Part shown: positions 40,772 to 54,219 of the stretch, one piece after another
Layout of the letters: every line of letters starts with the position of its first letter
Numbering within the stretch: position 1 is the stretch's first letter
Assembly: GCF_015277895.1 (NCBI RefSeq)
Contig: NZ_CP063815.1
Coordinates: forward strand, 2,728,001 to 2,792,000
Source of the DNA: Microbacterium abyssi
GTDB taxonomy: Bacteria; Actinomycetota; Actinomycetes; Actinomycetales; Microbacteriaceae
Direction of reading: 5' to 3'
Length of the DNA stretch: 64,000 bases
The notes under the pieces: model-generated
Database searches by the model: none
What the model saw: only the letters and a program-made list of their open reading frames with translations
What the model was told of the DNA's origin: nothing
Translations under genes and position numbers: made by a program

Positions 40772-41007
40772 GTCCCGCGGCTTCCGACGAGGAGGAGACC
40801 GGCATCCACTGCCGGCTCGATGAGCTGCTCGCAGAGCGGGGCATGACGCTGACTCAACTGAGCACCGCGGTCGGCGTCAGCATCGTGAACCTCTCGGTGC
40901 TGAAGAACGATCGAGCGCGGGCGATCCGGTACTCGACGCTGCGGGCGATCTGCGATGTGCTGCAGTGCGAGGTCGGCGAGCTGCTGGTGCTGGCTGGGGA
41001 GAGCTGA
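40768..41007 (+). CDS. Small XRE-family regulator (YozG-like)
   Basis: 79 residues, essentially one Cro/C1 helix-turn-helix: LDELLAERGMTLTQLSTAVG, VSIVNLSVLKNDRARAIRYS, TLRAICDVLQCEVGELLVLAG. This compact type accompanies DUF2975 genes. It is probably the repressor for the inverted-repeat promoter at 39470-39530, closing an autoregulatory loop. Overlaps both neighbours by 4 and 1 bases. Confidence 0.88.
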   Translation: MSPAASDEEETGIHCRLDELLAERGMTLTQLSTAVGVSIVNLSVLKNDRARAIRYSTLRAICDVLQCEVGELLVLAGES

Positions 41008-41225
41008 TGGGTTCCGCGAGCGGCTTCGAATACGTCGTGCGCGCAGATGGGAGCGTCGTCATCACGCACCACGGGCGCAGGGCGACTGTCCTTCGCGGCG
41101 GTCGCGCGGAGAAGTTCCTCGAGGAGGCGCGCACCGACCCGCAGGGTGCGATGGCGCGGTGGACCGGGAACTACAAGCACGGCAACGAGCGCACGGCGAA
41201 GCAGCATCCGCGCAACCGAGGTTGA
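41007..41225 (+). CDS. Small hypothetical protein, last gene of the DUF2975/XRE operon
   Basis: 72 residues starting MGSASGFEYVVRADGSVVIT. GRRATVLRGGRAEKFLEEAR and the basic tail RWTGNYKHGNERTAKQHPRN follow. Soluble. Its ATG shares one base with the XRE stop. The pattern (FEYVVRADGSVVITHHGRRAT) is reminiscent of a short conserved actinobacterial protein, but I cannot name a family. Confidence 0.7.
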   Translation: MGSASGFEYVVRADGSVVITHHGRRATVLRGGRAEKFLEEARTDPQGAMARWTGNYKHGNERTAKQHPRNRG

Positions 41226-41262
41226 TCCGAAGAGCGCGCGGTGACGAGCGCGCGGTGACGGG

Positions 41263-41400
41263 CCCAGGCTGGTCCGGCGCCGGGCTGAACTGCCCCAGGC
41301 TGGTCCGGCGCCGGGCTGAACTGCCCCAGGCTGAACTGACCCAAGCTGGTCCTACCCAGGCTGGATTGATCCCGGCTGATCTGACCCCAGGGGCGATCCA
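41263..41400. repeat. Degenerate tandem repeats, 31-bp unit
   Basis: Two exact copies of a 31-bp unit start at 41263 and 41294 (CCCAGGCTGGTCCGGCGCCG then GGCTGAACTGC). Shortened, diverged copies based on CCAGGCTG and GCTGAACTGACCC continue to about 41400. Just before, GAGCGCGCGGTGAC occurs twice (about 41232-41260). The repeats lie between the convergent ends of the small-protein gene and the HNH gene. No gene is present here. Confidence 0.75.
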
Positions 41401-41404
41401 CCTC

Positions 41405-42907
41405 TCACGCGGCAGGTCGGAACCGTTTCGGTGGCGGATCGATCCCACCCCACGCGTAGCTGAGCGCGGCCCGCGGTCGCATGGCGTATGTCTCCCCGGA
41501 TCGGTGGTGCAGGACGAAGTCGTCTTTCCCTCGACGGGTGATCCTCCACTCGCCGTGGTGCAGCGTCATGTGGTGATACCGGCAGAGCAGGATTCCGCGA
41601 TCGATGTCCGTTCGACCCTGGTCGCGCTTCCACTCATCGATGTGATGTGCCTCGCAGTACGACGCCGGCCGGTCGCATCCGAGCCAGCGGCACCCGCCGT
41701 CGCGGATCGCGAGCCCGATGCGCTGCTTCGGTGTGAACAGCCGCTGTTCCCGGCCGACGTCGAGCGGATTTCCGCACGCGTCGACGGTGACGGGAACGAA
41801 TCCGCTGTCACACATGTGCTGCTCGGCGACCGCCCCGGGCACGGACACCAGGTGGTCTTCCGAGTGTACGACGTGCTCGGCGTTGCCGTCGGCATCCATG
41901 ACCTGAACGAGACGCACGCCGGCCTGACGCGTGCCGAACACGGTCTCGGAATCGGCCAGCATGCCTGCTCGCAGTACATCCAGCACCAGGTCATAGCTGA
42001 GCTGATCGTTCGTGCGCGGGTCGTCTGCGAGTGATGCGGCGCGCTCCTTCTCGTCGGCATCCACGAATCGCGGGCCACCTCGCCGTGGACGCATGGCAGC
42101 AGCGAGAAGGGTCTCGATGAACAGATCTCCCTCGTCGTCGAGCGTCATGCTCGCGCGCTTCTGCCCATCCTGCCCGCGATACGTGCGGAACGATCGCTTC
42201 TCGAACCGCTCGAGGAATCGCGCTTCGGCACCCTCCGGATCGAGCAGATCGCGGACGGTCCGCGCCGCCTGCCACAGCTCTTCGACGGTACGCTCGGCGG
42301 CTTCGCCGATGAGGTGTTCCGACGCTTGTCGCCAAGCGGCGCGAGCTTCTTCGTGCGCTTGGGCTCTCGCCTCGGCATCCGTCGCATCGCCCGACGCATC
42401 GTCGCCGATCTCGGGCGGATCACCCAGCCCTCGCCTGATCGCGTCGAACTGCGACGACGTCAGGCGGCTGTCGCGCAGCGCATCGCGCAGCGGTTGATAC
42501 CAGGGCCCCTCCGTGGGCCGCCCGCCGTTCGCATGCTCGTCGCCTGCAGGTTGAGTCGCGCTCGGTTCGTCGACCAGCGCCTCGCCTACCCGCACCTTGC
42601 GGTTCGCGTCGGCCTTGGTCGATCCGGTCACGTCTTGAATGAGCGCGGCGGCCGACCGATGCCCGCGCGACTGCGACAGCCCCGAATGACCGCGCTCGCG
42701 ATTGGAGCGCAGCGCGACGACGCCGGCTGCCAGCACTTGGATCTGCTCGACTTGCTTGGCCAACGCCGCCGTCTCTTCGAGGATCTTCACGACGTCGGCA
42801 TCCGTCATCAGCATCATCGACGCGCGCGCGAGATCCGCATCGGCACCATCGACGAGCCGCCCACACAAGGTGGGAATCAGCGCCGCGACGTCGGTGAAAG
42901 TTGCCAT
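41405..42907 (-). CDS. HNH endonuclease of the DUF222 family
   Basis: 500 residues. An N-terminal DUF222 region (RGHRSAAALIQDVTGSTKAD, ANRKVRVGEALVDEP) is followed by a C-terminal HNH nuclease: CRWLGCDRPASYCEAHHIDE and LLCRYHHMTLHHGEW, with zinc cysteines and the catalytic His. These genes are abundant and multicopy in Microbacteriaceae and Mycobacteriaceae, often as host-like or 13E12-repeat proteins of unknown role. Divergent from the toxin-antitoxin pair. Confidence 0.92.
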   Translation of the reverse strand: MATFTDVAALIPTLCGRLVDGADADLARASMMLMTDADVVKILEETAALAKQVEQIQVLAAGVVALRSNRERGHSGLSQSRGHRSAAALIQDVTGSTKADANRKVRVGEALVDEPSATQPAGDEHANGGRPTEGPWYQPLRDALRDSRLTSSQFDAIRRGLGDPPEIGDDASGDATDAEARAQAHEEARAAWRQASEHLIGEAAERTVEELWQAARTVRDLLDPEGAEARFLERFEKRSFRTYRGQDGQKRASMTLDDEGDLFIETLLAAAMRPRRGGPRFVDADEKERAASLADDPRTNDQLSYDLVLDVLRAGMLADSETVFGTRQAGVRLVQVMDADGNAEHVVHSEDHLVSVPGAVAEQHMCDSGFVPVTVDACGNPLDVGREQRLFTPKQRIGLAIRDGGCRWLGCDRPASYCEAHHIDEWKRDQGRTDIDRGILLCRYHHMTLHHGEWRITRRGKDDFVLHHRSGETYAMRPRAALSYAWGGIDPPPKRFRPAA

Positions 42908-42960
42908 ACTTCATAGTCTCAGGGGCCACCGACATTCAGGCAGACATCTGCACAGAAGCG

Positions 42961-42966
42961 TATGAT
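42961..42966 (+). promoter_or_regulatory. -10 box of vapBC, implying a leaderless transcript
   Basis: TATGAT lies seven bases before the vapB ATG at 42974, so transcription would start at or next to the start codon. No convincing -35 is visible at 17 bp (AGGCAG). No purine-rich ribosome site precedes the ATG, consistent with leaderless translation. Confidence 0.5.
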
Positions 42967-42973
42967 GATCTGC

Positions 42974-43210
42974 ATGCGAACGACACTCAACCTCTCCGAC
43001 GCCCTCGCGCGCGAGGCGAAGTCGCGCGCTGCGCGTGAGGGACGCACCTTCACGAGCTTCCTCGAAGAGGCGCTCCGCGAGCATCTCGCGCGCGAGCTGC
43101 CGGATGCGCCTCAGACGCCCCTCCCCACCTACACGCCGAAGGTTCCTGGCAGTCTCGTCGACCTCGACGACAAGGACGCGGTCTGGGACGCGCTGGACAA
43201 GAGCGCATGA
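42974..43210 (+). CDS. vapB: Antitoxin, ribbon-helix-helix VapB type
   Basis: 78 residues. MRTTLNLSDALAREAKSRAA is the N-terminal beta strand and helix of an RHH DNA-binding domain. GRTFTSFLEEALREHLAREL is the second helix, and the C-terminal tail (KVPGSLVDLDDKDAVWDALD) would wrap the toxin. It precedes the PIN-domain toxin with a 4-bp overlap. The ATG at 42974 is preferred over an upstream ATG at 42962, which lies within the -10 box. Confidence 0.88.
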   Translation: MRTTLNLSDALAREAKSRAAREGRTFTSFLEEALREHLARELPDAPQTPLPTYTPKVPGSLVDLDDKDAVWDALDKSA

Positions 43211-43656
43211 CCCTCGTCGTTCCCGACGTGAACGTGCTCGTTTACGCCTTCCGCGCGGACTCGCCCGATCACGACGTCTACGCCGACTGGCTCAATGGCG
43301 CTATGCGTGCAGGTCGAATCGGCGTCGCCGACACGATTCTCAGCGGCTTCGTGCGCATCGTGACGCACCCCCGCATCTACGCGGAGCCGACTCCAGTCGC
43401 CGCGGCGCTGGCCTATGTACGACACCTGATCGACGCTCCGAACACCGACTGGCTGCGCCAGGGCCCGTCTGCATGGGAGAAGTTCGACGCGCTGGCATCC
43501 GAAGACGCCGCGGTGCGCGGCAATCTCGTGCCGGACGCCCACATCGCCGCGCTCTGTCTTGCCAATGGCGCACGCCTGGCGACGCGGGATCGCGGCTTCG
43601 CGCGGTTCCCCGGATTGAGATTGTTCGATCCGGCGAAGGCGGATGCTGGGCGCTGA
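43207..43656 (+). CDS. vapC: PIN-domain toxin, VapC type
   Basis: 149 residues. VVPDVNVLVYAFRADSPDHD carries the first catalytic Asp, FDALASEDAAVRGNLVPDAH the later acidic residues, and ARLATRDRGFARFPGLRLFD the C-terminal acidic motif of PIN ribonucleases. VapC toxins cut specific RNAs when freed from VapB. Its neighbourhood (HNH gene, restriction operon) is that of an accessory region. Confidence 0.92.
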   Translation: MTLVVPDVNVLVYAFRADSPDHDVYADWLNGAMRAGRIGVADTILSGFVRIVTHPRIYAEPTPVAAALAYVRHLIDAPNTDWLRQGPSAWEKFDALASEDAAVRGNLVPDAHIAALCLANGARLATRDRGFARFPGLRLFDPAKADAGR

Positions 43657-43664
43657 AGCACGTG

Positions 43665-43954
43665 TCAGTCGAGCGCGCTCGGCGCCTTCGGCTGATCCCA
43701 GACGCGCGCGAACTCGTCGCTGATCAGCGGCCAGATCGTACAGGACGAAGTCGTGTGGAATCATCCGCCCCGCGCGATCCTTACGCCTATCCGGGTCAGC
43801 AATGCGAAGAGCAACCATGTCGCCGTGGCGAACGACTCCCACGGGCTGTTCGCCGAGATCTGCAATGACCGACTCGTACACGGGCAGCGGATCATCGAAT
43901 CCGCCCTGCCTCAAGAACGAAGTCCCACTCCCTCCCGCGTGAAGCCCAGATCAT
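43665..43954 (-). pseudogene. Frameshifted small gene (about 96 codons), unknown family
   Basis: Three consecutive frames together give one plausible protein: MIWASRGREWDFVLEAG, then GFDDPLPVYESVIADLGEQP and GRMIPHDFVLYDLA, then LISDEFARVWDQPKAPSALD before the TGA at 43665. The breaks fall near 43905-43925 (an extra base in a G run) and near 43725-43735 (bases lost in a C/G run). The joins read naturally, so I regard this as one gene with two indels, either decayed or mis-sequenced. No family recognised. It follows a 57-codon gene by two bases. Confidence 0.6.
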
Positions 43955-43956
43955 TC

Positions 43957-44130
43957 TCACTTGAGACTCCGGATCAGGACCCGCGCCTTCTCACCATCGT
44001 CGAGTGCGATTCGGAATCGTGTGAGGACCGCAGTCAGGTACTCATGGCGTGCAAGCGCGGCGGCTTTGATCTCTTCAAGCTTGTCTCGTGCCAGCCCCAC
44101 GCTCTGATCGATGACATCCTTCGACAGCAC
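43957..44130 (-). CDS. Small hypothetical protein, helical
   Basis: 57 residues from a GTG at 44128-44130: VLSKDVIDQSVGLARDKLEE, IKAAALARHEYLTAVLTRFR, ending VLIRSLK. Composition suggests two amphipathic helices. GGAGG lies 12 bases upstream. An ATG at 44149 would fit better with the preceding ORF but needs a one-base shift. It lies between two frameshifted small genes downstream of the helicase; the three may once have belonged to the restriction operon. Confidence 0.5.
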   Translation of the reverse strand: MLSKDVIDQSVGLARDKLEEIKAAALARHEYLTAVLTRFRIALDDGEKARVLIRSLK

Positions 44131-44138
44131 TGCGCTAA

Positions 44139-44271
44139 TCAGCCTCCATCCCCAAGTAGTTCTGGTACGGCCTGCTGCCCTCTTGCATCGTCAGCTACCA
44201 CGTCGAAGAGGTTCTGCTCGCCGAATCCCTCATACTCGGTAGGCCCGCTGTTCGAGTCGCTTTACCTGCAT
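44139..44271 (-). pseudogene. Frameshifted small gene (about 43 codons) after the helicase
   Basis: An ATG at 44269-44271, four bases past the helicase gene, reads MQVKRLE and hits a stop after 13 codons. Skipping one base in CTCGAACAG gives NSGPTEYEGFGEQNLFDVVA, then DDARGQQAVPELLGDGG and a TGA at 44139. The recovered sequence is acidic and protein-like. The single shift is either decay or an extra base in the assembly. Unknown function. Confidence 0.45.
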
Positions 44272-44274
44272 GAG

Positions 44275-47070
44275 TCACCCATTCTCTAGTCGCGTTCGCG
44301 GCATCAGCGCCAGGAGATCGTCGTACGCGCCGTCCGCGGAATGATCATGCACGCATGTGAAGCGGTTCGCCCGAATATCCCCAGCTACGGCAGCCACCTT
44401 CTCACGGATGTCTCCGATAAGCGCCGCATCGACCGGATCGTTGGTGCTCTTGCCCTGATCATCGAGGTTAAGGATCTGGATGCGGTCGGCCGAAGCACCC
44501 GAAAGCTCCTGGTATCCGAGTGCGTAGATGGCCAGTTGGTCACGAGTGACGTCCTCGTCCTGCGACCGCGCCGTCGACTTGAAGTCGACGATCGCGGTCT
44601 CGTCCGTCTCAAGAGATTTGATCAGATCAATCCTGCCGTTGACCGAAACTCCAGGGGCGATATCCACACCGATCTGCTTCTCCGAGTGAATCGTGCGGGT
44701 GAGGTCATCGCCATGCCGATCGAAGTAGCGCTCGATCGCTTTTACACCGGCACGATGCAGCTGCTCCCGAAGCGCCGGATATGCGTATGGGGTGTGCAGA
44801 TGCCGCGTGACCAACTCGTCCGCCTCATCGCGACTCGGCGGATCCCCCGCGAGCGCACGTTTGTGCATCTCAGCAAGAGCGTCGTGGAGTCCCTTCCCGA
44901 ATCCGAGCGCCTCGTGAATGGGTGGGTTGAACCCGTACATGAACCGGAGCTTGAACTGGTATGGGCAGTCAAACAGGTACTTGAGCTCCGAGAACGATAT
45001 CGCGATGTTCGGCGTCTCCAGCCTGGGAGTCGGCTCGAGACGCGGAAGGCTGGGCAACCCCTCGTCGCTGGTCGAGACCCAGGACGTCGCCGTGCAATGC
45101 AAGTAGAAGTCCGACGCCTTCCCCTGCCCACGCTTCTCTCCAGGTGCGTAGCTGACGTAGAGGAACTTCTGCGACCGCGTCACCGCGACGTAGAACAGTC
45201 GCGTTTCGTCGGACATGCCGCCCTTGTACCGCTCACCGTTGACCACGGCGTCGTCGGCGATGATGTGCGGGATGACCTGAGTCCCACCCATCCCCCGCAT
45301 CGGAAATCGCCCCTGACGAAGGAATGGGATGAAGACCGCCGGCCACTGCAAGCCTTTCGACCGGTGCACCGTGGATATCACCACCGCGTCGGGCTGCACA
45401 TATCCGGCATCATCGTCCGATTCCTCGTAGACGCCCGGCGCTTGAAACGTCAAGAACCCGAGGAACGACTCGTACTTCCGCGCGGGCGATGATGCGAAGT
45501 GGATCGCTTCGAAGTCCGAGATCACCTGGGAGAACTTTCCAAGTTGATACATGACAAGCTCTCGACGACGGGCATCACCGGGGACCGTCTCCTCGCGAAG
45601 CCCCAGCGCGCTGAGTGCGGCCAAGTACAGACGCTGGATGTTGTATGTTCCCCACCGGTCACTCTTCTCGAAGTCGGCCCCGTCGTCGAGCACGTCGATC
45701 AGCTGCTGCCAATGCAAGGCGTCCGGCACGAGATCGGCAGCGTCCCACAAGTTGCGCAAGTCTGCCGCTGTGATGTCGTCCATCATGTAGCGGAACAGTC
45801 CGACGCATGCCTGGATTTCGGGTGCGTCGAACAACCGAGCGAGTCCCTTGATCAGGAAGGGGATGCCTCGGCGTTTGAACTCGTTGACGAGAGCATCCGC
45901 GTCCTTGACCGACCGGAACAGCACCGCGCAATCCGACCAGGAGAGACCGCGCGGTTCTGCACCGGGCTTGTCGACGAACGGCATCCCTTGCAGATCCTCG
46001 ATGCGCTCGGCGATCCAGGTCGCCTCCTCGACGACATCCTCGAACTGTAGAGCGAGCATGTCACCGCGCTGCCACTCCTGGTGCGAAGCGTGAACCATCT
46101 TCTTCGCGAGGCGTTCACTGGAGTTGAGCCGCTCGGCGACGCTGCGGCCGAGCTCGACGACTCCCTTCGTCGAGCGAAAGTTGTCAGCGAGTTCGATCGT
46201 CCGCACGTCCGCGTAGCGGTTCGCGAACGAGATGATGTTCGAGACCTCCGACCCGCGCCACTGATAGATCGTCTGGTCGTCGTCACCCACGACGCACAGG
46301 TTCGCGCCGTAATGAACGAGTCGTTCGACCAGTCGCTCCTGGATGGGGTTCACGTCCTGGTATTCATCGACGATGACGAATCGAACCTCGTCTCTGACGT
46401 GGTCGCGCAGCACGCGTTCTGACGACGACAGATCATCCGTCGTCTCCACCTTCTGCAGGAAGTCAACGGCTTGAACCATCATCGACGTGTAGTCGAAGTA
46501 CTTCCGATTCACGAGCAGCTCACGGTACGAGGCAAGACTCGACGCCACCGCTTCGCGCACCTTGGAGAAGTCGACTTCGTCCTCCTGCAGGATCGAAAGC
46601 GCCGATTTGTACGTGCGCGTATCGACAAAGCGCCGTAGGGGCGCCTCAGTCCCTTGGACGAGCTTGGTGCAGGTCGTCAGTCCAGAGTTCTTGCTCTCCC
46701 GGTCGATGAGCAGCTGCTGGGTGATGTCGGTGAGCACGCCGTACTTGAACGTCTCGGGCACGTACGTCTGTAGCAGATCGAGACAGTACCCGTGCATCGT
46801 GCCGATATACATCTCGGCCAGTCCGACGACCTCGCCGATCTCCGCCTTCACGACGGAATGCACGCGCTCCTTCAGTTCCGCGGCCGCCTTCTCTGTGAAT
46901 GTGAAGGCGATCACGTTGGCGGGGCTCACACCGGGCTGCGCCAAGATGTGCGCGATCCGCTGCGCGAGCACCTGCGTCTTTCCCGACCCGGCGCACGCGA
47001 TCAATTGGAGCGTGCTCGTCACCTCGGTGATCGCCGTCTCCTGCGACGGCGTGAACGTCAACGTGCTCAT
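44275..47070 (-). CDS. UvrD/Rep-type helicase fused to a PD-(D/E)XK (RecB/Cas4-like) nuclease
   Basis: 931 residues. Superfamily 1 helicase motifs: Walker A ACAGSGKTQVLAQRIA (about 25-40), FTFTEKAAAELKERV (Ia), VIVDEYQDVNPIQE (II), DDDQTIYQWRGSE (III), HRSKGLQWPAVF (V), RLFYVAVTRSQKFL (VI). The C-terminal 220 residues form a PD-(D/E)XK nuclease: FDCPYQFKLRF, GFGKGLHDALAEMH, NGRIDLI and AIVDFKST, then DQLAIYALGYQ. Only one clear C-terminal Cys (RFTCVHD) remains near where AddB/Cas4 proteins hold a 4Fe-4S cluster, so a cluster is doubtful. Its start overlaps the res stop by 4 bp, which makes it part of the restriction operon. Confidence 0.9.
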   Translation of the reverse strand: MSTLTFTPSQETAITEVTSTLQLIACAGSGKTQVLAQRIAHILAQPGVSPANVIAFTFTEKAAAELKERVHSVVKAEIGEVVGLAEMYIGTMHGYCLDLLQTYVPETFKYGVLTDITQQLLIDRESKNSGLTTCTKLVQGTEAPLRRFVDTRTYKSALSILQEDEVDFSKVREAVASSLASYRELLVNRKYFDYTSMMVQAVDFLQKVETTDDLSSSERVLRDHVRDEVRFVIVDEYQDVNPIQERLVERLVHYGANLCVVGDDDQTIYQWRGSEVSNIISFANRYADVRTIELADNFRSTKGVVELGRSVAERLNSSERLAKKMVHASHQEWQRGDMLALQFEDVVEEATWIAERIEDLQGMPFVDKPGAEPRGLSWSDCAVLFRSVKDADALVNEFKRRGIPFLIKGLARLFDAPEIQACVGLFRYMMDDITAADLRNLWDAADLVPDALHWQQLIDVLDDGADFEKSDRWGTYNIQRLYLAALSALGLREETVPGDARRRELVMYQLGKFSQVISDFEAIHFASSPARKYESFLGFLTFQAPGVYEESDDDAGYVQPDAVVISTVHRSKGLQWPAVFIPFLRQGRFPMRGMGGTQVIPHIIADDAVVNGERYKGGMSDETRLFYVAVTRSQKFLYVSYAPGEKRGQGKASDFYLHCTATSWVSTSDEGLPSLPRLEPTPRLETPNIAISFSELKYLFDCPYQFKLRFMYGFNPPIHEALGFGKGLHDALAEMHKRALAGDPPSRDEADELVTRHLHTPYAYPALREQLHRAGVKAIERYFDRHGDDLTRTIHSEKQIGVDIAPGVSVNGRIDLIKSLETDETAIVDFKSTARSQDEDVTRDQLAIYALGYQELSGASADRIQILNLDDQGKSTNDPVDAALIGDIREKVAAVAGDIRANRFTCVHDHSADGAYDDLLALMPRTRLENG

Positions 47071-49679
47071 GCGTACTTCGCTCCGAACTCTGAACCGAAC
47101 AGGTCGCTCGCGCTCCCCTTGGTCTCACGAACGACCTCGCGGACCGCCGGATCGAGCATGTCAAGCACCCGCAGCTCGCCCGACGAGCCGGACGCCCCCG
47201 ACGTACCAATCGAGTCGATCCGGTGGAAGGCGTGGCCGTGTTGTTCTGCGAATGCCGCGAGCCCCCTCAGCTTGACGATCGAGTCATCGAGGTGCGTGCC
47301 GTGCGGGTCGACGATCGACGGACGGATCTCACCGTTCACGAGCGTGAAGATCAGAAAGTCCGGATGCAGCGTGCGCCAGTTTCCGGAGCCGTCACGGTAA
47401 GGCACTCCGAGGGAGTCCGGGCGCGTAACCGACGGATTGCGGTACCACGCGACGCAGTCGACCCGCTCGACTTCCTTTCGAACGACCGGACGTTCCCAGC
47501 CGTTCAGGCTAGAGAGAGGGAACTGGCCCTCCTCATCGGCCATCAGGTGCTTGTCGATGAGCTCCGCCGACTTGACCTGGTCGTTCTCGATCTCGGCGAA
47601 GTCCTCGAGTCGGGACTTCGGCCGCGCGAGCGGGGTCACCTGCGGCTCGACTGCCTCAGCACGGATCTCGTCGTACGCATCGCGTCGCTCGTCTGCCAGG
47701 CCGCGGAGTGCCACCCGATGCTCGCCGAACCAGTCGGACACGATCTCCTTGGCCGCCTGATCGATCTTCTCCCGCACATTCGGCACGGTCGCGAGAGCGG
47801 CCGCCTTCACGAAGGCACCCCGCAGGGCGTCGTCGCTGTCGTCGACTTCCGGATCGGCGATGAAGTCGACGTACGACTGCGCGATGTCTGCACCAAACGC
47901 GCGCTTCGCCTCTTCGAATGCAACGCGTATCGCGCGCTCGTCCGCTCGCTCGTTGAAATCGGAGTAGCTGACCTTCTTACTGGCGGTCCGACCCGAGATC
48001 GTCATGCCTCGTACGGTCAGCACCTCGATCTCCGCATTGCGAAGATCGCCGTCATAACGAGCGGCCAATGATTCAAGAGTGTTGTGCATCTGTCTCTTCA
48101 CCGACGCGACAGCACCTTCGCGGATGTTGTCTGCTGCGAGCGCCTGCGCGAGACTGACGAGCTGCTTGACGGCTCGCGAACCACGGCGCGGGATCACCAT
48201 GTGAGGCAGCTGATCCCAGCAGTCCCACACCGCGTCCGGGATCGCGGCGTTCGGCACGAGCTCACGCGGATCGAACAGAACCTTCTGTCCGGTGGTCGGC
48301 ATCGACTCCGTGGCACCGGTGAGGTACTTGACGACGTGGCCGGCCGTGGTGCGATCGAAGTGCGGCAGGATGCAGTCGACCGAATTCAGGCGGTCCTCGC
48401 CGGGGATGCGCCGCGCAAGCGGCGTGCGCACCATGCGTCCGAGCAGCTGCGTGATGTGCGTGTGATCCTTCGCCGGACGGAACGAAACGAGAACTTCAGC
48501 GCGAGGGCAGTCCCACCCCGTCGAAATGCCGTCCTTGGCGATGAGCACACGCACCTGAGTCTCGTCCTGCACACGCTGCGGTTCGATCCAGTCAATCTCC
48601 CACGACCCGAAAGTAAGGGCCTTGTGTTCGCCGAGAACGTGGCGCACTCCGGTTGAGGTGAGCTCGCCGAGCTCCGCCTGGATCGTGTCGAGCCAAAGGC
48701 CGACGTCATCCACGTTCTCGGTGTTCGGGATCTGCAGGACGAGTAGCGGAACGACCCTGTCTGAAGAAGTTTCGCCGGGGAGCGCCTTCTGTTCGGCGAG
48801 ATAACGCCCCCAGCGTTTCGCCGACTCCCTGAGCTTTCGGGCGGCGCGGGTCGTTAGTGTCGTCTCGAGGTTGCCCGCTTCGGCGGGGATGTCGAGTGCG
48901 ATGACGTCCTTGATGAGGCCGGACTGCTGTACTCGGGCGGGATCCACGGTGACCGGCGGTAGCGTCGTCCGCCCTTCGACCGCGGCGTCCTTCATCGCGT
49001 CGGTGAAACGGTCGATCGTCGCCGAGATTCCCCACACCACGGGGATCGGAAGCCCTGTCATCTCTCCGCTGACGAGACGCCGCACGATCGTCGGCTTGTC
49101 TCTGGATGCTTTGCCGGTGAACCCTCGGTGCGCCTCGTCGAGGACGAGGTAGACGGTGAGGCCCTCGTCCTCGATCGTGTTCTCAAGCGTCTCCCAAATG
49201 TTCCACGCCAGGTCGTCCGGAGCCACCATGCTCTCGCCGCGGGCATCCGCCTCGTATGTCTGCTCGGCTCCCCTTGTGAGGAGCGATGTCTTCGACAGTC
49301 GCTGGGTGTTGAGGAAGTAGACGTGCTGCGGCTCGAGCGTCGGGAGTGCGAACGGCGGCTTGATCGTCACGAGTCGGTCGTAGGACAGCTTCTCCGATGC
49401 CTGAACCAGTCGCCGTTTCGTCTGCTCGTTAAGGTTCGGATCGTCGGAGAACCAGATGACGACGGCGCCCGGGTCGGGTTGGAACTCGAGTTCGGAGTCG
49501 CCGTAGAAGAGCGCCTCGATGGCGGCCGCCGCCATGACGGTCTTGCCGGCGCCGGTCGTCGCAGTCAGCGCGAACGACGTCTCCATCCCGTCGCGCTGAT
49601 ACAGCGTGCGAGCGCGACGGAGGTTGTCGAGTGTCTGGACGACGGCGTCACGCTGATAGTCCTTGAGCTTGTACCTCAT
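47067..49679 (-). CDS. Type III restriction-like DEAD/DEAH helicase-endonuclease (Res)
   Basis: 870 residues. Superfamily 2 translocase: MRYKLKDYQRDAVVQTLDNL (Q-motif region), Walker A TGAGKT (42-47), DEAH box VLDEAHRGF, WGISAT (III), LLGRMVRTPLARR (VI) and RVLIAKDGISTGWDCPRAE. Near residue 780 HPDFLIF followed by SIVDPHG suggests the PD-(D/E)XK nuclease site, with VDPHG instead of the usual E-x-K, so activity needs testing. The start overlaps the mod stop by 4 bp. With Mod it would form a methylation-dependent restriction pair. Confidence 0.88.
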   Translation of the reverse strand: MRYKLKDYQRDAVVQTLDNLRRARTLYQRDGMETSFALTATTGAGKTVMAAAAIEALFYGDSELEFQPDPGAVVIWFSDDPNLNEQTKRRLVQASEKLSYDRLVTIKPPFALPTLEPQHVYFLNTQRLSKTSLLTRGAEQTYEADARGESMVAPDDLAWNIWETLENTIEDEGLTVYLVLDEAHRGFTGKASRDKPTIVRRLVSGEMTGLPIPVVWGISATIDRFTDAMKDAAVEGRTTLPPVTVDPARVQQSGLIKDVIALDIPAEAGNLETTLTTRAARKLRESAKRWGRYLAEQKALPGETSSDRVVPLLVLQIPNTENVDDVGLWLDTIQAELGELTSTGVRHVLGEHKALTFGSWEIDWIEPQRVQDETQVRVLIAKDGISTGWDCPRAEVLVSFRPAKDHTHITQLLGRMVRTPLARRIPGEDRLNSVDCILPHFDRTTAGHVVKYLTGATESMPTTGQKVLFDPRELVPNAAIPDAVWDCWDQLPHMVIPRRGSRAVKQLVSLAQALAADNIREGAVASVKRQMHNTLESLAARYDGDLRNAEIEVLTVRGMTISGRTASKKVSYSDFNERADERAIRVAFEEAKRAFGADIAQSYVDFIADPEVDDSDDALRGAFVKAAALATVPNVREKIDQAAKEIVSDWFGEHRVALRGLADERRDAYDEIRAEAVEPQVTPLARPKSRLEDFAEIENDQVKSAELIDKHLMADEEGQFPLSSLNGWERPVVRKEVERVDCVAWYRNPSVTRPDSLGVPYRDGSGNWRTLHPDFLIFTLVNGEIRPSIVDPHGTHLDDSIVKLRGLAAFAEQHGHAFHRIDSIGTSGASGSSGELRVLDMLDPAVREVVRETKGSASDLFGSEFGAKYA

Positions 49680-51709
49680 CGCGCACCCCGCATCGCGTCG
49701 ATCTCGAAGTTGCGCAGGTAGGAGTCATAAAGGCGCACAACCTCGACTTCTGCGGGCAACGCCCCGGCGATCGCCTCGAAGAAGCGGTCTTCATCGGTGA
49801 CGATGAATGCGATCGAAGCATCGGATGCCGCGGTCATCGCCTCGACGAAAGCGTCGGTCTTGTCCATGTCGTCGATCACGCCATATGTTTCGGCGACGTC
49901 CCATCCGTTCGGCAACTCCTCGATGCGGCGTCCGCGCGAACCAGCCCTCAGCCAGAGCAGCGACGAAATCTTCTCGAACTCGCGGTGCGACTGCACACGC
50001 ATGGACGCCTCGTAGGTGAGCGTGAAGAACTCGACGTTCTGGTCGAGCCCTTCGGAGTAGATGGTGCCGTCGTCCCGCAGCCCAGAAGCGACCGTGGAAA
50101 GCCGCGGCCTCGTGACATGTTCGAAGACGCCGCTCCGACGCCAACCGTCATCCCCAGGCCGCAACCCCTCCTTGATCAACCGCTTCGAGTCCTTCGCCGC
50201 AAGTTCATTGTTGGTGACGAGGATGCAGTTGCGAGTGCCACCGTCAGCATTGTTTAGTCGCATCACGGCTTCTGCCGTGGAGCCAGAGCCCCCGAAGAAG
50301 TCAAGTATCACGGCGTCGTCAGGCGCAATAAGCCTCAGCCAGCGAGCCAGTACGTCGACATCTTTAGGGTTCGGAAAGCGACGATCTCCGAACACCTTTG
50401 CCAGTTGACCCGAGGCGCGATTCCGGTCCTGCGAAAAGACGGACTCAGCGACACGAGTGTCCATCTCCTCAAGACGGTAAATCTCGCTGGGAATGCGACT
50501 TTCATCGTCCCCGAAGTACACTCGTCCAGCGGCCACACGCCGATCCATCTCATCGTTGCTGTACCGCCAACCGTTCGCAGGCACAGCAGTCGGGCGCTGT
50601 GTAATCGGATGAGTCAGCGGTCTTCTGGAGCGATTGGGTCGAGGTTCCGGCGCCACCATGCTGCCATCAGTTCGAATGGGTCGACCATTCTCGTCAAGGG
50701 ATGAGTATCGGGCGATGGCGTCGAATCCTTTGCCCTTTCCCAAAGACTTGAGCCACGCACGCCATTGACGCTGCGCGTCAGCAGACTCAACCGCATGCGC
50801 CCAAATCCCAGCAGCCATTGCAAGCGCTTCATCCAATCCTGGTTTCTTTTCACGCCACTGAACTTCGGCCTGCACTAAGGCCGGCTCATCCTTGGCGTAG
50901 ACGAGCATGTAGTCTGCTCCGTTCGACACGTAGCGCGTATAGCTCTTCGCGCCTCCTTGCCATACCACGTCTGACAGGAAGTTCTGCGCGCTGAACACCT
51001 GGTCCATCAGCATCCGCAACCGATGATGCTCCTCATCACCGATCGCAACGATGATCACTCCGGTGGGTGCAAGCAGCTCTTTGGCAAGCAGTAGCCGTCG
51101 CTCCATGAATGCCAGCCACTTCGAATGCCGATACATGTCGTCGCTCGACACATACTTGTCGTTGTAAATCCACCCATCGTTGCCGGTGTTGTACGGCGGG
51201 TCGATGTAGATTGCATCAATCCTGCCGCGATGTGTGTACAGCAGCGCCTGTAGCGCGTGATAGTTCTCGGCGTTGATCACCGAGTGAAAAGGCTTGCCTC
51301 CGCCGCGCTCGATCCTCCCCGTCGAAACGAGCCCTGGGTAGATGGGGTCGCGGAACTCCGCGACCACCACGAGATCAGCAACGTCTACCGTCGTTGCATC
51401 CATCTTGTCGCCCGTTCCGCGGGCCTCAAGATCGGCGGTTCGGGCATCCGAGTCGCCGCTGAGACTCGTGACCGTCCACAACTGATCTTCACCGCCCTTA
51501 GGCGTTTCGCCCCGCGGCGGCAGTATGTGAACTTTGTCTCCGACACGAGGACGCCGCCCCGGCAGCTCCACTGCTTCAGGGGTGTGCCGTTCAAAGTTGA
51601 GTCCGAACGCTCGCCGTTGCGCCAGCTGATTCACCTCACGCGCAAGACGATCGCCGAGCTCAGCGTTCGTTGCGCGTACCTGTTTGATCAGCTCATGGAT
51701 GTACGCCAC
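49676..51709 (-). CDS. Site-specific DNA methyltransferase, type III Mod-like
   Basis: 677 residues, beta-class amino-methyltransferase. Catalytic DPPY at about 170-173 (DAIYIDPPYNTGNDGW) comes before the SAM motif FFGGSGSTAEAVMRL (about 460-475), the order typical of type III Mod proteins. Probable target-recognition region between them. The N-terminal 120 residues (RRPRVGDKVHILPPRGETPK) are an additional domain. The sequence shows a run of less GC-rich, rarer codons around 50.4-50.9 kb, consistent with transfer. First gene of the operon; divergent from a small XRE gene across an operator-rich gap. Confidence 0.93.
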   Translation of the reverse strand: MAYIHELIKQVRATNAELGDRLAREVNQLAQRRAFGLNFERHTPEAVELPGRRPRVGDKVHILPPRGETPKGGEDQLWTVTSLSGDSDARTADLEARGTGDKMDATTVDVADLVVVAEFRDPIYPGLVSTGRIERGGGKPFHSVINAENYHALQALLYTHRGRIDAIYIDPPYNTGNDGWIYNDKYVSSDDMYRHSKWLAFMERRLLLAKELLAPTGVIIVAIGDEEHHRLRMLMDQVFSAQNFLSDVVWQGGAKSYTRYVSNGADYMLVYAKDEPALVQAEVQWREKKPGLDEALAMAAGIWAHAVESADAQRQWRAWLKSLGKGKGFDAIARYSSLDENGRPIRTDGSMVAPEPRPNRSRRPLTHPITQRPTAVPANGWRYSNDEMDRRVAAGRVYFGDDESRIPSEIYRLEEMDTRVAESVFSQDRNRASGQLAKVFGDRRFPNPKDVDVLARWLRLIAPDDAVILDFFGGSGSTAEAVMRLNNADGGTRNCILVTNNELAAKDSKRLIKEGLRPGDDGWRRSGVFEHVTRPRLSTVASGLRDDGTIYSEGLDQNVEFFTLTYEASMRVQSHREFEKISSLLWLRAGSRGRRIEELPNGWDVAETYGVIDDMDKTDAFVEAMTAASDASIAFIVTDEDRFFEAIAGALPAEVEVVRLYDSYLRNFEIDAMRGAR

Positions 51710-51723
51710 CGCAGCCCTCCCCA

Positions 51724-51770
51724 GGGTTCCTCAACCCCGGGAAGGTACTTGTACCCGGGTTTGTTAACCC
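51724..51770. promoter_or_regulatory. Paired GGGTT-N4-AACCC palindromes between mod and XRE genes
   Basis: GGGTTCCTCAACCC (51724-51737) and GGGTTTGTTAACCC (51757-51770) are two perfect 5-4-5 palindromes with centres 33 bp apart, about three helical turns. Between them GGTAC-TT-GTACC (51744-51755) is a third palindrome, and the whole block is nearly symmetric (CCAGGGTT...AACCCTGG). It fills the 96-bp gap between divergent genes. The obvious binder is the XRE protein encoded 35 bp away, acting like a restriction-modification controller. No clear -10/-35 could be assigned. Confidence 0.75.
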
Positions 51771-51805
51771 TGGCACAAGTCACAGACATTGCTGACGCTT
51801 GATGG

Positions 51806-52078
51806 GTGCCCCGAATCCCGTCCGCCGCAGCCGAGCACATCGGGGCCAAGATCGTCGCCAAGCGCAAGCACTTCGGGTTGACGCAGGACGATCTCGCCTC
51901 ACTCACGCGGATCGATTCGTCGAACATCCGCAGCTACGAATCAGGGCGCGCGATGCTGAGCGTTCAGACGCTCGTGCGCATCGCCGAGGCACTGAAGACC
52001 GAGCCGGGAGAACTGCTCGACGGACTCACCTCAGAGATGTTCGGCGAGGCCGCCGCGCCGAAGCGGCGCGCGGGATAG
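51806..52078 (+). CDS. XRE-family regulator, candidate controller of the restriction operon
   Basis: 90 residues from a GTG at 51806. IPSAAAEHIGAKIVAKRKHF, GLTQDDLASLTRIDSSNIRS, YESGRAMLSVQTLVRIAEAL is a Cro/C1-type helix-turn-helix with little else, as in the C proteins of restriction-modification systems. It is divergent from mod with palindromic operators between. Alternative: an unrelated housekeeping regulator that merely borders the island. Confidence 0.88.
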   Translation: MPRIPSAAAEHIGAKIVAKRKHFGLTQDDLASLTRIDSSNIRSYESGRAMLSVQTLVRIAEALKTEPGELLDGLTSEMFGEAAAPKRRAG

Positions 52079-52128
52079 GCGAACCTGCGATCTCGAGACG
52101 GGCGCGCGGACGTCGGTACGCTGATGCC

Positions 52129-52431
52129 ATGACGTACGTCAACGCCGGCACCCTGGGCGCCGTCCCTGGAAAACGCGATGAGCTCGTCTCGCTGCTCACG
52201 CAGCGCAATGAACGGCTTCGCGACCTCGGCTGCACCCTCTACGAGGTGGGCATAGACGATGACGAGCCGAACGTGGTCTTCGTCGTCGAGCTCTGGGAGA
52301 GCGCCGGAGCGCACCAGGACTCCCTGAGTCAGCCCGATGTCATGGCTGCCATCGCCGAGGCCAGGCCTCTCTTGAACGGACAGTTCGGCGGGTTCCGCTT
52401 CACCGTGGCAGGGTCACCACTTCGCGACTGA
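52129..52431 (+). CDS. Antibiotic biosynthesis monooxygenase (ABM)-domain protein
   Basis: 100 residues, dimeric alpha-beta barrel type. YVNAGTLGAVPGKRDELVSL, GCTLYEVGIDDDEPNVVFVV, ELWESAGAHQDSLSQPDVMA are typical of ABM/YgiN-like quinol monooxygenases and heme-degrading relatives. No heme-ligand motif is obvious. It follows the XRE gene on the same strand by 50 bp. The 75 bp after it hold imperfect GCGACTAAGCC repeats and nothing else. Confidence 0.85.
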   Translation: MTYVNAGTLGAVPGKRDELVSLLTQRNERLRDLGCTLYEVGIDDDEPNVVFVVELWESAGAHQDSLSQPDVMAAIAEARPLLNGQFGGFRFTVAGSPLRD

Positions 52432-52506
52432 GGACGCCACCCCTCGTCCGAGTCGGTCGATGACCGGGCCGGCAGCCGGCGACTAAGCCCGCGACTAAGC
52501 CGGTGG

Positions 52507-54219
52507 CTACGCCCGCGACTGCGGCCGCGTCGCACCCCGCGTGTCCAGCGCGAGCTCCTCCGCATCGATCGCGGTCATGAGCTCGCGCATCAGCTCCTCG
52601 TCGAGGTTGTCGGCGTCACGCTCCGCGAGCAGCACCTCGCGCCGCACGTGCAGCCAGCCCTTCGACAGCTCCACCAGGTCGTCATAGGAGGGGCGAGGCA
52701 TCGAATCCTCGACCTCCTGAGCACGATCGGTGTCCGTCTCGACCCGCGTCATCCTCGTCGCGAACAGGTCGAACGCTTTCATCTCGGCCTCGCCGTACTT
52801 CGCCGCCCACGCCTCGCGCTGCTCCGCCAGGAACGTCTTCCCGGCCTCGCGACTCCGAGCTCGCACGGCGGCCATCGCCGCAGCATCCGAATCGCGATCC
52901 GAATCACCGGCGACCCCCAACCGGCGGATCAGAACGGGCAGCGTCAGCCCCTGCAGCAGCAGGGTTGCAACCGTAACGATGAACGCCACCACGACGATCG
53001 CGTGCGCGGACTTCACATCGAGCGCCGCCAGATCAGAAGCGGCGAGCGCCGTCGCCAGCGTCACCACACCGCGCATCCCCGCCCACGAGATGACAGCGTT
53101 GTCCTTCCAGTCCAGCGCCGGTTCGGTCAGACGCCTCCGCATCTGCTCTTCGGTGAGCGGACGGCGCCCCGGGCCGCGCGCAGGAGACGCGAACCTCCCC
53201 GACGCGACCATCCGCTCCCACCGCCGCAACCGGCTCCGCTCCCGCCACCGCGCCCAGGCGTGCGCGGGATAGATGTAGAGCGGCCGCACCACCAGCACCG
53301 CGAGCAGCACCGCCCCCGACAGCCCCAGGATGTGCACCACCGACTCCGACCCCAGATCGCTCAGCACCCGGGGGAACTGCAGCCCGATGTATGCGAAGAC
53401 GAAGCTCTCCAGCAGCAGGTCGGCCGACAGCCACAGCGGCGCCTCCTGCTGCCTGGTCGTGTAATCCGTGCGCGGAGCGTTGAACCCGACGTACAGCCCC
53501 ATCGCGACCACCGCGAGCACACCCGAACCGCCCAGGTGCTCGGCGATCGCATACGCCCCGAACGGCACGAGCAGCCCGAACGTCCCGATCACCACGGGAT
53601 CGGCCACCCGCATGCGCAGCTGGTGCAGCACGATGCCGAACACCAGCCCGACCACGACCCCGACGACAACCGCGACGACGAACTGCCAGATGCCGTCCCA
53701 CACTGTGAGCGTCGCCCCCGCGATCACCGCGGCGAACACCCGATACAGCGTCAGCGAGGTCGCATCGTTGATGAGGCTCTCCCCCGACAGCACCGTCATG
53801 ACGCGTCTCGGCAGCCCGAGCCTCCGGCCGATCGCGGCTGCGGACACCGCATCCGGCGGCGCCACGATCGCGCCCAGCAGCAGTGCGCCAGGCAGCGTGA
53901 GCGCCGGCATGATCAGCCACGCCACGAGTCCGACCACGGCGGTCGTGATCAGCACCAGCCAGATCCCGAGTCTGCGGATCTGCGGCAGGCTGCGCTTGAA
54001 CCCGACGAACGACACATCCAGCGCCGCCGAGTACAGCAGCGGCGGAAGCACCAGATTCAGCAGCAGATGCCCGTCGATCTCGATCTCGGGGACGAACGGC
54101 AGGAAGGATGCCGCGAGCGCCACGACCGTGACCAGCAAGGGTGCCGGCCACCCCCGCCATCGTGCGATGGCCGCCACGACCACAGCACCGACGAGCACAT
54201 AGAAGAAGGTGGCGTCCAT
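52507..54219 (-). CDS. Na+/H+ antiporter, CPA1 family
   Basis: 570 residues. About 12 helices in the first 420 residues. FLPFVPEIEIDGHLLLNLVLPPLLYSAA is the CPA1 helix region, GAIVAPPDAVSAAAIGRRLG contains the ion-binding PPD (cf. the ND/PDA motif), and SGESLINDATSLTLYRVF and WAGMRGVVTLATALA are also conserved. A cytoplasmic helical C-terminus (KTFLAEQREAWAAKYGEAEM) may be regulatory. Exchanges Na+ or K+ for protons. Stand-alone, divergent from the next gene. Confidence 0.93.
   Translation of the reverse strand: MDATFFYVLVGAVVVAAIARWRGWPAPLLVTVVALAASFLPFVPEIEIDGHLLLNLVLPPLLYSAALDVSFVGFKRSLPQIRRLGIWLVLITTAVVGLVAWLIMPALTLPGALLLGAIVAPPDAVSAAAIGRRLGLPRRVMTVLSGESLINDATSLTLYRVFAAVIAGATLTVWDGIWQFVVAVVVGVVVGLVFGIVLHQLRMRVADPVVIGTFGLLVPFGAYAIAEHLGGSGVLAVVAMGLYVGFNAPRTDYTTRQQEAPLWLSADLLLESFVFAYIGLQFPRVLSDLGSESVVHILGLSGAVLLAVLVVRPLYIYPAHAWARWRERSRLRRWERMVASGRFASPARGPGRRPLTEEQMRRRLTEPALDWKDNAVISWAGMRGVVTLATALAASDLAALDVKSAHAIVVVAFIVTVATLLLQGLTLPVLIRRLGVAGDSDRDSDAAAMAAVRARSREAGKTFLAEQREAWAAKYGEAEMKAFDLFATRMTRVETDTDRAQEVEDSMPRPSYDDLVELSKGWLHVRREVLLAERDADNLDEELMRELMTAIDAEELALDTRGATRPQSRA

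Follow-up and report, generated by a model that had tools for sequence, protein, structure and literature searches.

Here, we describe mod-res-hel, a three-gene operon of Microbacterium abyssi that combines a type III-like restriction-modification (R-M) gene pair with a gene for a helicase fused to a nuclease. The operon lies in a stretch of 64,000 nucleotides (contig NZ_CP063815.1, positions 2,728,001 to 2,792,000 of the forward strand), hereafter the window, in which three open reading frames (ORFs) occupy 44275-51709 on the minus strand. As a sequence-only reading of this DNA had stated, the genes are joined by 4-bp overlaps, and both junctions read ATGA (Table 1). In its usual description, type III R-M consists of two genes. 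At this locus, a type III-like mod adjoins res, the adjacency by which type III R-M is recognized, and hel is the third gene. A divergent gene for an XRE-type helix-turn-helix (HTH) protein is a possible regulator and a putative member of the operon.

Table 1. Features of the mod-res-hel locus and its surroundings, in window coordinates
Feature	Position	Strand	Description
mod	49676..51709	-	GTG start; 677 aa; type III-like DNA methyltransferase, beta-class order
res	47067..49679	-	870 aa; superfamily 2 (SF2) DNA translocase with C-terminal PD...DPH nuclease-like domain
hel	44275..47070	-	931 aa; UvrD-like superfamily 1 (SF1) helicase fused to RecB/Cas4-like PDDEXK_1 nuclease
mod/res junction	49676..49679	-	ATGA, 4-bp overlap
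res/hel junction	47067..47070	-	ATGA, 4-bp overlap
XRE-type HTH gene	51806..52078	+	90 aa; divergent, 96 bp from mod start
DUF222-HNH protein	41405-42907	-	inside the variable segment
VapB-like and VapC-like proteins	42962-43656	+	82 aa (by eye) and 149 aa (TIGR00028); 4-bp overlap; convergent with hel

A conserved operon under purifying selection

The same three genes in the same order are present in five further genomes from two genera (L275, L276 and L277 from the genus of the window, and L263 and L269). In all five, res and hel overlap by 4 bp, with ATGA in L275, L276 and L277 and GTGA in L263 and L269; mod of L263 stops 38 bp ahead of res. The ratio of nonsynonymous to synonymous substitution rates (dN/dS, NG86) between the window and L276, in which all three frames are open, is 0.09 for hel, 0.11 for res and 0.33 for mod. 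The corresponding values are 0.09, 0.11 and 0.27 against L277, 0.10, 0.20 and 0.24 against L269, and 0.11, 0.20 and 0.25 against L263 (dS 1.0-2.3 against L276, L277 and L269, and at least 1.0 in every pair). Thus, strong purifying selection acts on res and hel. Because the order is the same in five other genomes and dN/dS is low against L276, mod-res-hel is a real operon, beyond chance. The earlier proposal that a type III-like system and a third UvrD-PD(D/E)XK gene form a unit, to be checked by co-occurrence across genomes, is borne out by the order and the res/hel overlap kept in two genera.

Mod matches Pfam N6_N4_Mtase (1e-30) and the PADLOC model MTase_III (PDLC03645, 537 bits), and its DPPY (170-173) and FFGGSGST (471-478) motifs stand in beta-class order. 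In the PDB, it matches the Mod subunit of EcoP15I (4zcf_A, 2e-44). A variable region inside Mod, which membership in type III needs, is evident from comparison with the three trio loci L276, L277 and L269: identity per 50-residue block is 14-34% across residues 251-450 and 34-93% outside them. From this alignment, the block at about 251-450 is probably the target-recognition domain, and the low identity of the center fits an exchange of recognition domains.

Other arrangements occur as well. L278, L264 and L265 have the order res-mod-hel with a res of the BPTD_3080 kind, and in L265 two ORFs separate mod from hel; in L266, a mod-res pair of the window's kind faces a distant hel (31%), and L270 has a hel fragment with no R-M match. 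The genome searches are samples and incomplete as censuses, and those of the family, the window's genus and the other genera overlap. At E ≤ 1e-100, Hel was matched in 5/398 family genomes and 5/198 genomes of the window's genus, and in 3/26, 1/9 and 1/9 genomes in the genera of G1024, G866 and G921, respectively. All five Hel-bearing genomes among the 398 of the family have type III-like mod and res genes adjacent to hel or two ORFs away. At the level of the order, 32 of 396 genomes have a Res match, the window's own included, and no Hel homologue was found in 20 stretches from 19 other Res-bearing order genomes. The reading taken after this search, that Hel is peculiar to the window's locus, did not survive denser searches of the family and the genus.

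R-M partners of the Hel family

A profile built from seven Hel sequences was used to score relatives of Hel listed from viral and genome contigs, plasmids and sampled genomes. R-M-like genes were detected within 6 kb of each locus with a panel of 16 proteins, and a panel protein's match on its own locus was dropped. In the upper group (at least 570 bits), 16/25 listed loci have an R-M-like gene, these 25 including seven that came up during, or were used for, construction of the profile as well as the near copies L188 and L087. Among the listed loci with at least 4 kb on both flanks, the count is 14/19, and the idea that the helicase gene might usually be found without mod-res does not hold for the Hel family in this sample. 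By contrast, only 1/88 listed loci of other UvrD-type proteins (below 335 bits) and 1/52 of those fully flanked have such a gene (Fisher p = 7e-10 for 14/19 versus 1/52 listed loci). The middle group (335-495 bits) gave 12/21 listed loci and 9/13 fully flanked ones; all 12 positives are on viral contigs, several of them near copies, and none of the eight genome-contig loci is positive. The Hel family thus has the neighboring R-M genes that characterize the UvrD-Cas4 class of helicase-nuclease fusions.

The partners are diverse and include type III modules of several subfamilies as well as types II, I and ISP. The order hel-mod-res is found in Arenimonas (L091), a deltaproteobacterium (L092), Nitrospira (L093), Elusimicrobia (L094), an actinobacterium (L095) and a viral contig (L186); mod is spread over two ORFs in L093 and L094, and a 223-residue ORF stands between mod and res in L091. 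Res of L091 matches NCBIfam restr_BPTD_3080 (1078 bits), a name for which a literature search returned nothing useful, and Res of L084 matches PADLOC REase_III (759 bits) and resembles PRK15483 at 303 bits, a score below the cut-off of that model. Cytosine methyltransferase or type II genes adjoin hel in L086, L087, L188 and L189. On the Hel tree, the window groups with L081 and then with L090 (both 99), and next with L091, L092, L186 and L093 (96). Because the partner types are intermixed on this tree, it is Hel that stays constant and the R-M module that changes. In phage records, Hel gave 18 matches, none covering 80% of the query.

Several observations on these loci stand apart. A second helicase-nuclease group, at 335-425 bits and on viral contigs (L190-L194, L196-L199, L201, L202 and L206), has a mod-like gene at most 1 kb behind the helicase-nuclease gene in 12/13 listed loci. 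The hel relative of G256 (L081:11442-17570) is broken by a stop or frame change and by inserted genes, one of which encodes an AAA_22 domain. A gene for a Sacsin-like ATPase (PADLOC TmtA, 195 bits; L092:13378-16713) lies directly downstream of hel-mod-res, and a second such ATPase, of 1695 residues, was recognized by eye in L180.

The operon of the window sits between a clpC-like gene with an HTH neighbor and a Na/H antiporter gene. The gap from the HTH gene on the clpC side to the antiporter (41007-52507) measures 11.5 kb in the window and 1.7-3.8 kb in five of seven stretches from the same genus; the HTH gene was not found in the other two. The G+C content is 59-64% across 44-52 kb and 66-70% on both sides. 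We infer that the operon moved horizontally.

Putative nuclease sites of Res and Hel

Res matches Pfam ResIII (8e-10) and, weakly, PADLOC REase_III (32 bits), and found no match among NCBIfam models. The SF2 translocase motifs GAGKT (43-47) and DEAH (181-184) are present. The VDPHG motif lies at residues 790-794, and the nuclease-like residues are P773-D774 and D791-P792-H793. These five residues are invariant in 19/19 aligned Res, i.e., that of the window and 18 from stretches without a Hel match. Because it is invariant also in Res that lack hel nearby, DPH is the normal site of this Res subfamily. In view of this invariance, the suggestion in the sequence-only reading that Hel replaces a weakened Res nuclease is not supported, and a weakening of Res owing to Hel was rejected. 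In an AlphaFold2 model, the order of secondary structures in residues 729-826 was read as fitting a PD-(D/E)XK core. Fold comparison of the whole protein returned SNF2-type, type ISP (LlaBIII) and EcoP15I chains. Most of these matches were confined to residues 1-472 and fell short of the nuclease-like domain; that none to this domain was listed excludes nothing. The Res sequence has no significant match in the PDB, and a search of viral contigs with Res alone was unproductive. Separately, E. coli YagJ (L257:4100-4831) and a Salmonella plasmid protein (L258:5064-6257) match the C-terminal part of Res only, retain PDF and DPH and adjoin an IS1 transposase gene; both look like truncated remnants of Res.

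Hel contains UvrD-helicase (UvrD_N), UvrD_C and PDDEXK_1 (1e-20) domains, with nuclease residues H729, D815, D829, K831 and Q845. It thereby combines a UvrD helicase with a PF12705 nuclease with catalytic motifs, as expected of UvrD-Cas4 fusions. According to parts of PMC5704561, all members of the Cas4 family have four conserved cysteines, and excerpts of PMC7430649 describe that alanine in place of such cysteines renders Bad labile. Relatives of Hel have one cysteine ahead of the nuclease motifs and three behind: in an alignment of 21 relatives, C702 is invariant, and cysteine is nearly invariant at the positions that correspond to 914, 917 and 923 in Hel of the window. Of the 25 listed upper Hel-family loci, 23 have CxxC...C near the end of the ORF that was scored. 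Of the two exceptions, L187 is cut by a contig end, and in L081 the scored ORF is a fragment and the motif is on a separate C-terminal piece. In Hel of the window, C702 is retained while G914, D917 and M923 replace the cysteines; thus, although Hel works and groups like a UvrD-Cas4 fusion, it lacks the full set of four iron-sulfur cysteines.

This change is shared by the window's actinobacterial clade. In all 10 members seen, the first cysteine is retained, the final 70 residues are devoid of CxxC, and C-x-H-D-H-[SA] is present; in the window, this motif corresponds to C906-x-H908-D-H910 near the lost cysteine positions. [YF]GKxLH, VDxKST, DQLx[IV]YA and GRxD are also present in 10/10, and Walker A and DEYQD in 9/10, the tenth, L270, being a fragment. 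Frameshift or decay was rejected as an explanation, as the other frames of the hel 3′ end hold no cysteine tail and ten sequences share the change. Tentatively, and with less than even confidence, we suggest that this clade exchanged its staple, in that C-x-H-D-H may provide new ligands (e.g., for zinc) and thereby make the nuclease of an R-M finisher iron-free.

A model for Hel, alternatives and known systems

Our data support, with reasonable though not strong confidence, a scenario in which mod-res-hel is a horizontally moved type III-like R-M operon with an accessory helicase-nuclease finisher. Mod would read a short site via its exchangeable central domain and methylate the host copy, probably at adenine, while a complex of Mod and Res would move along and cut unmodified DNA in an ATP-driven manner. 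Hel, translated from the same message via the overlapping stop and start codons, would load at the break, unwind DNA in the 3′-5′ direction and degrade the ends, such that the cut molecule could not be religated or repaired. Hel would then be a dedicated RecB/AddA-like finisher paired with several kinds of R-M. That Hel degrades DNA cut by Res is most likely and our best guess.

Several observations weigh against this scenario. The same mod-res subfamily mostly occurs without hel, and hel is thus optional: Hel has a match in 0/25 mod-res loci of this subfamily (Res alignments of 450 residues or more; 23/25 with at least 2.8 kb downstream of res), and the 38 plasmid records that match Res have none in common with the six that match Hel (E ≤ 1e-40 for both). 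In L275, mod is split over two frames. Nine of the 25 listed Hel-family loci lack an R-M gene by the panel; among them, L090 has type I and L083 type ISP genes, L187, L174 and L183 lie near a contig end that leaves at least one flank short, and no R-M gene was seen at L085, L182, L184 (1.5 kb on one side) and L185. Because DPH departs from the textbook (D/E)xK, Res is only a putative nuclease, and the Hel nuclease might be altered or weak because its iron-sulfur ligands were lost. Finally, the host has PF12705 domains in two other neighboring long frames (G000:C1:1185182-1189500), which we read from these nuclease domains as AdnAB-like.

The departure of DPH from (D/E)xK, together with the core nuclease motifs retained in Hel, would also suit an arrangement in which Res is a translocase with a degenerate nuclease and Hel was recruited as the real cutter. 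We consider this unlikely, given that PD and DPH are invariant in 19/19 Res, 18 of them from stretches without a Hel match, that the 25 mod-res loci have no Hel match and that the AlphaFold2 model of residues 729-826 reads as a PD-(D/E)XK core. Alternatively, Hel could be a repair enzyme that guards the host from its own restriction by readying chance breaks for recombination; it has a UvrD/RecB-type architecture, and sections of PMC5704561 propose a RecB/AddB-like role in recombination. This possibility is improbable, as relatives of Hel accompany several kinds of R-M modules and the host carries another candidate helicase-nuclease pair.

It is also conceivable that Hel senses or attacks another feature of phages, e.g., replication forks or DNA ends, and is merely cotranscribed with mod-res. 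The varied partners, i.e., type I in L090, type ISP in L083 and cytosine methyltransferase or type II genes in L086, L087, L188 and L189, fit this idea, as do the scores of the helicase half against the GajB and RTasHel models. Such a function is nevertheless very doubtful, because the order and the res/hel overlap are fixed in six trio loci, including the window, and R-M neighbors are far above the control.

The sequence-only reading knew of no defense system with this composition. However, the accessible text of Hudaiberdiev et al. 2017 (PMC5704561) reports UvrD-Cas4 (pfam12705) fusions, whose commonest neighbors are type III Mod and Res, followed by Dcm with Vsr, and for which a likely ancillary role in defense is given. 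As to whether the trio is already cataloged, this is so in part: the combination is published there, while PADLOC names single parts only. Hel resembles UvrD-Cas4, as described in that text, in being a UvrD-like helicase with a PF12705 nuclease beside Mod/Res with HTH genes nearby, and differs in that its clade lacks three of the four cysteines; this likeness concerns the fusion and the neighbors. AddB, DNA2 and Bad, in the sections of PMC7430649 considered, likewise combine an SF1 helicase with a RecB-family nuclease domain but have the iron staple, whereas Hel of the window retains only C702 of the four. The N4-methylcytosine (m4C) type III systems in excerpts of Murray et al. 2021 (PMC8259958) also add a third helicase-like gene to mod-res; there, it encodes an SF2 helicase-like protein without an endonuclease motif and lies 5′ of mod, whereas here an SF1 helicase with a nuclease domain is encoded 3′ of res.

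Both Mod and Res resemble EcoP15I, and the operon differs from such classical type III systems by the third gene hel and by DPH instead of (D/E)xK. Gabija shares a UvrD-type helicase with the operon, and among PADLOC models Hel reaches 195 bits with RTasHel and 187 bits with GajB; however, Hel has its own nuclease domain and the operon has no GajA-like gene. Membership in Gabija was rejected, as no GajA (OLD-type) domain was detected among eight genes scanned in and around the operon.

In our literature searches, the term UvrD-Cas4 was met only in PMC5704561, and no experimental study of such a mod-res-hel trio was found; the R-M helicase-nuclease combination has been in print since 2017 and is, apparently, experimentally untried. 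To our knowledge, and within the searches made, the following are new: a mod-res-hel order with overlapping genes, accompanied by selection and control counts; partners of different kinds intermixed on a single Hel tree; a DPH that does not vary within a Res subfamily; and a loss of the iron staple throughout a clade.

How fixed the iron staple is can be tested separately, and simply, through the predicted metal exchange; if this exchange is true, a domain with the staple can change its metal and yet keep its catalytic motifs. A third gene that encodes a helicase-nuclease, is under selection, has a fixed order and overlaps res makes a direct test of the fate of DNA after restriction possible, and in particular of whether R-M systems supply an end-degrading enzyme of their own.
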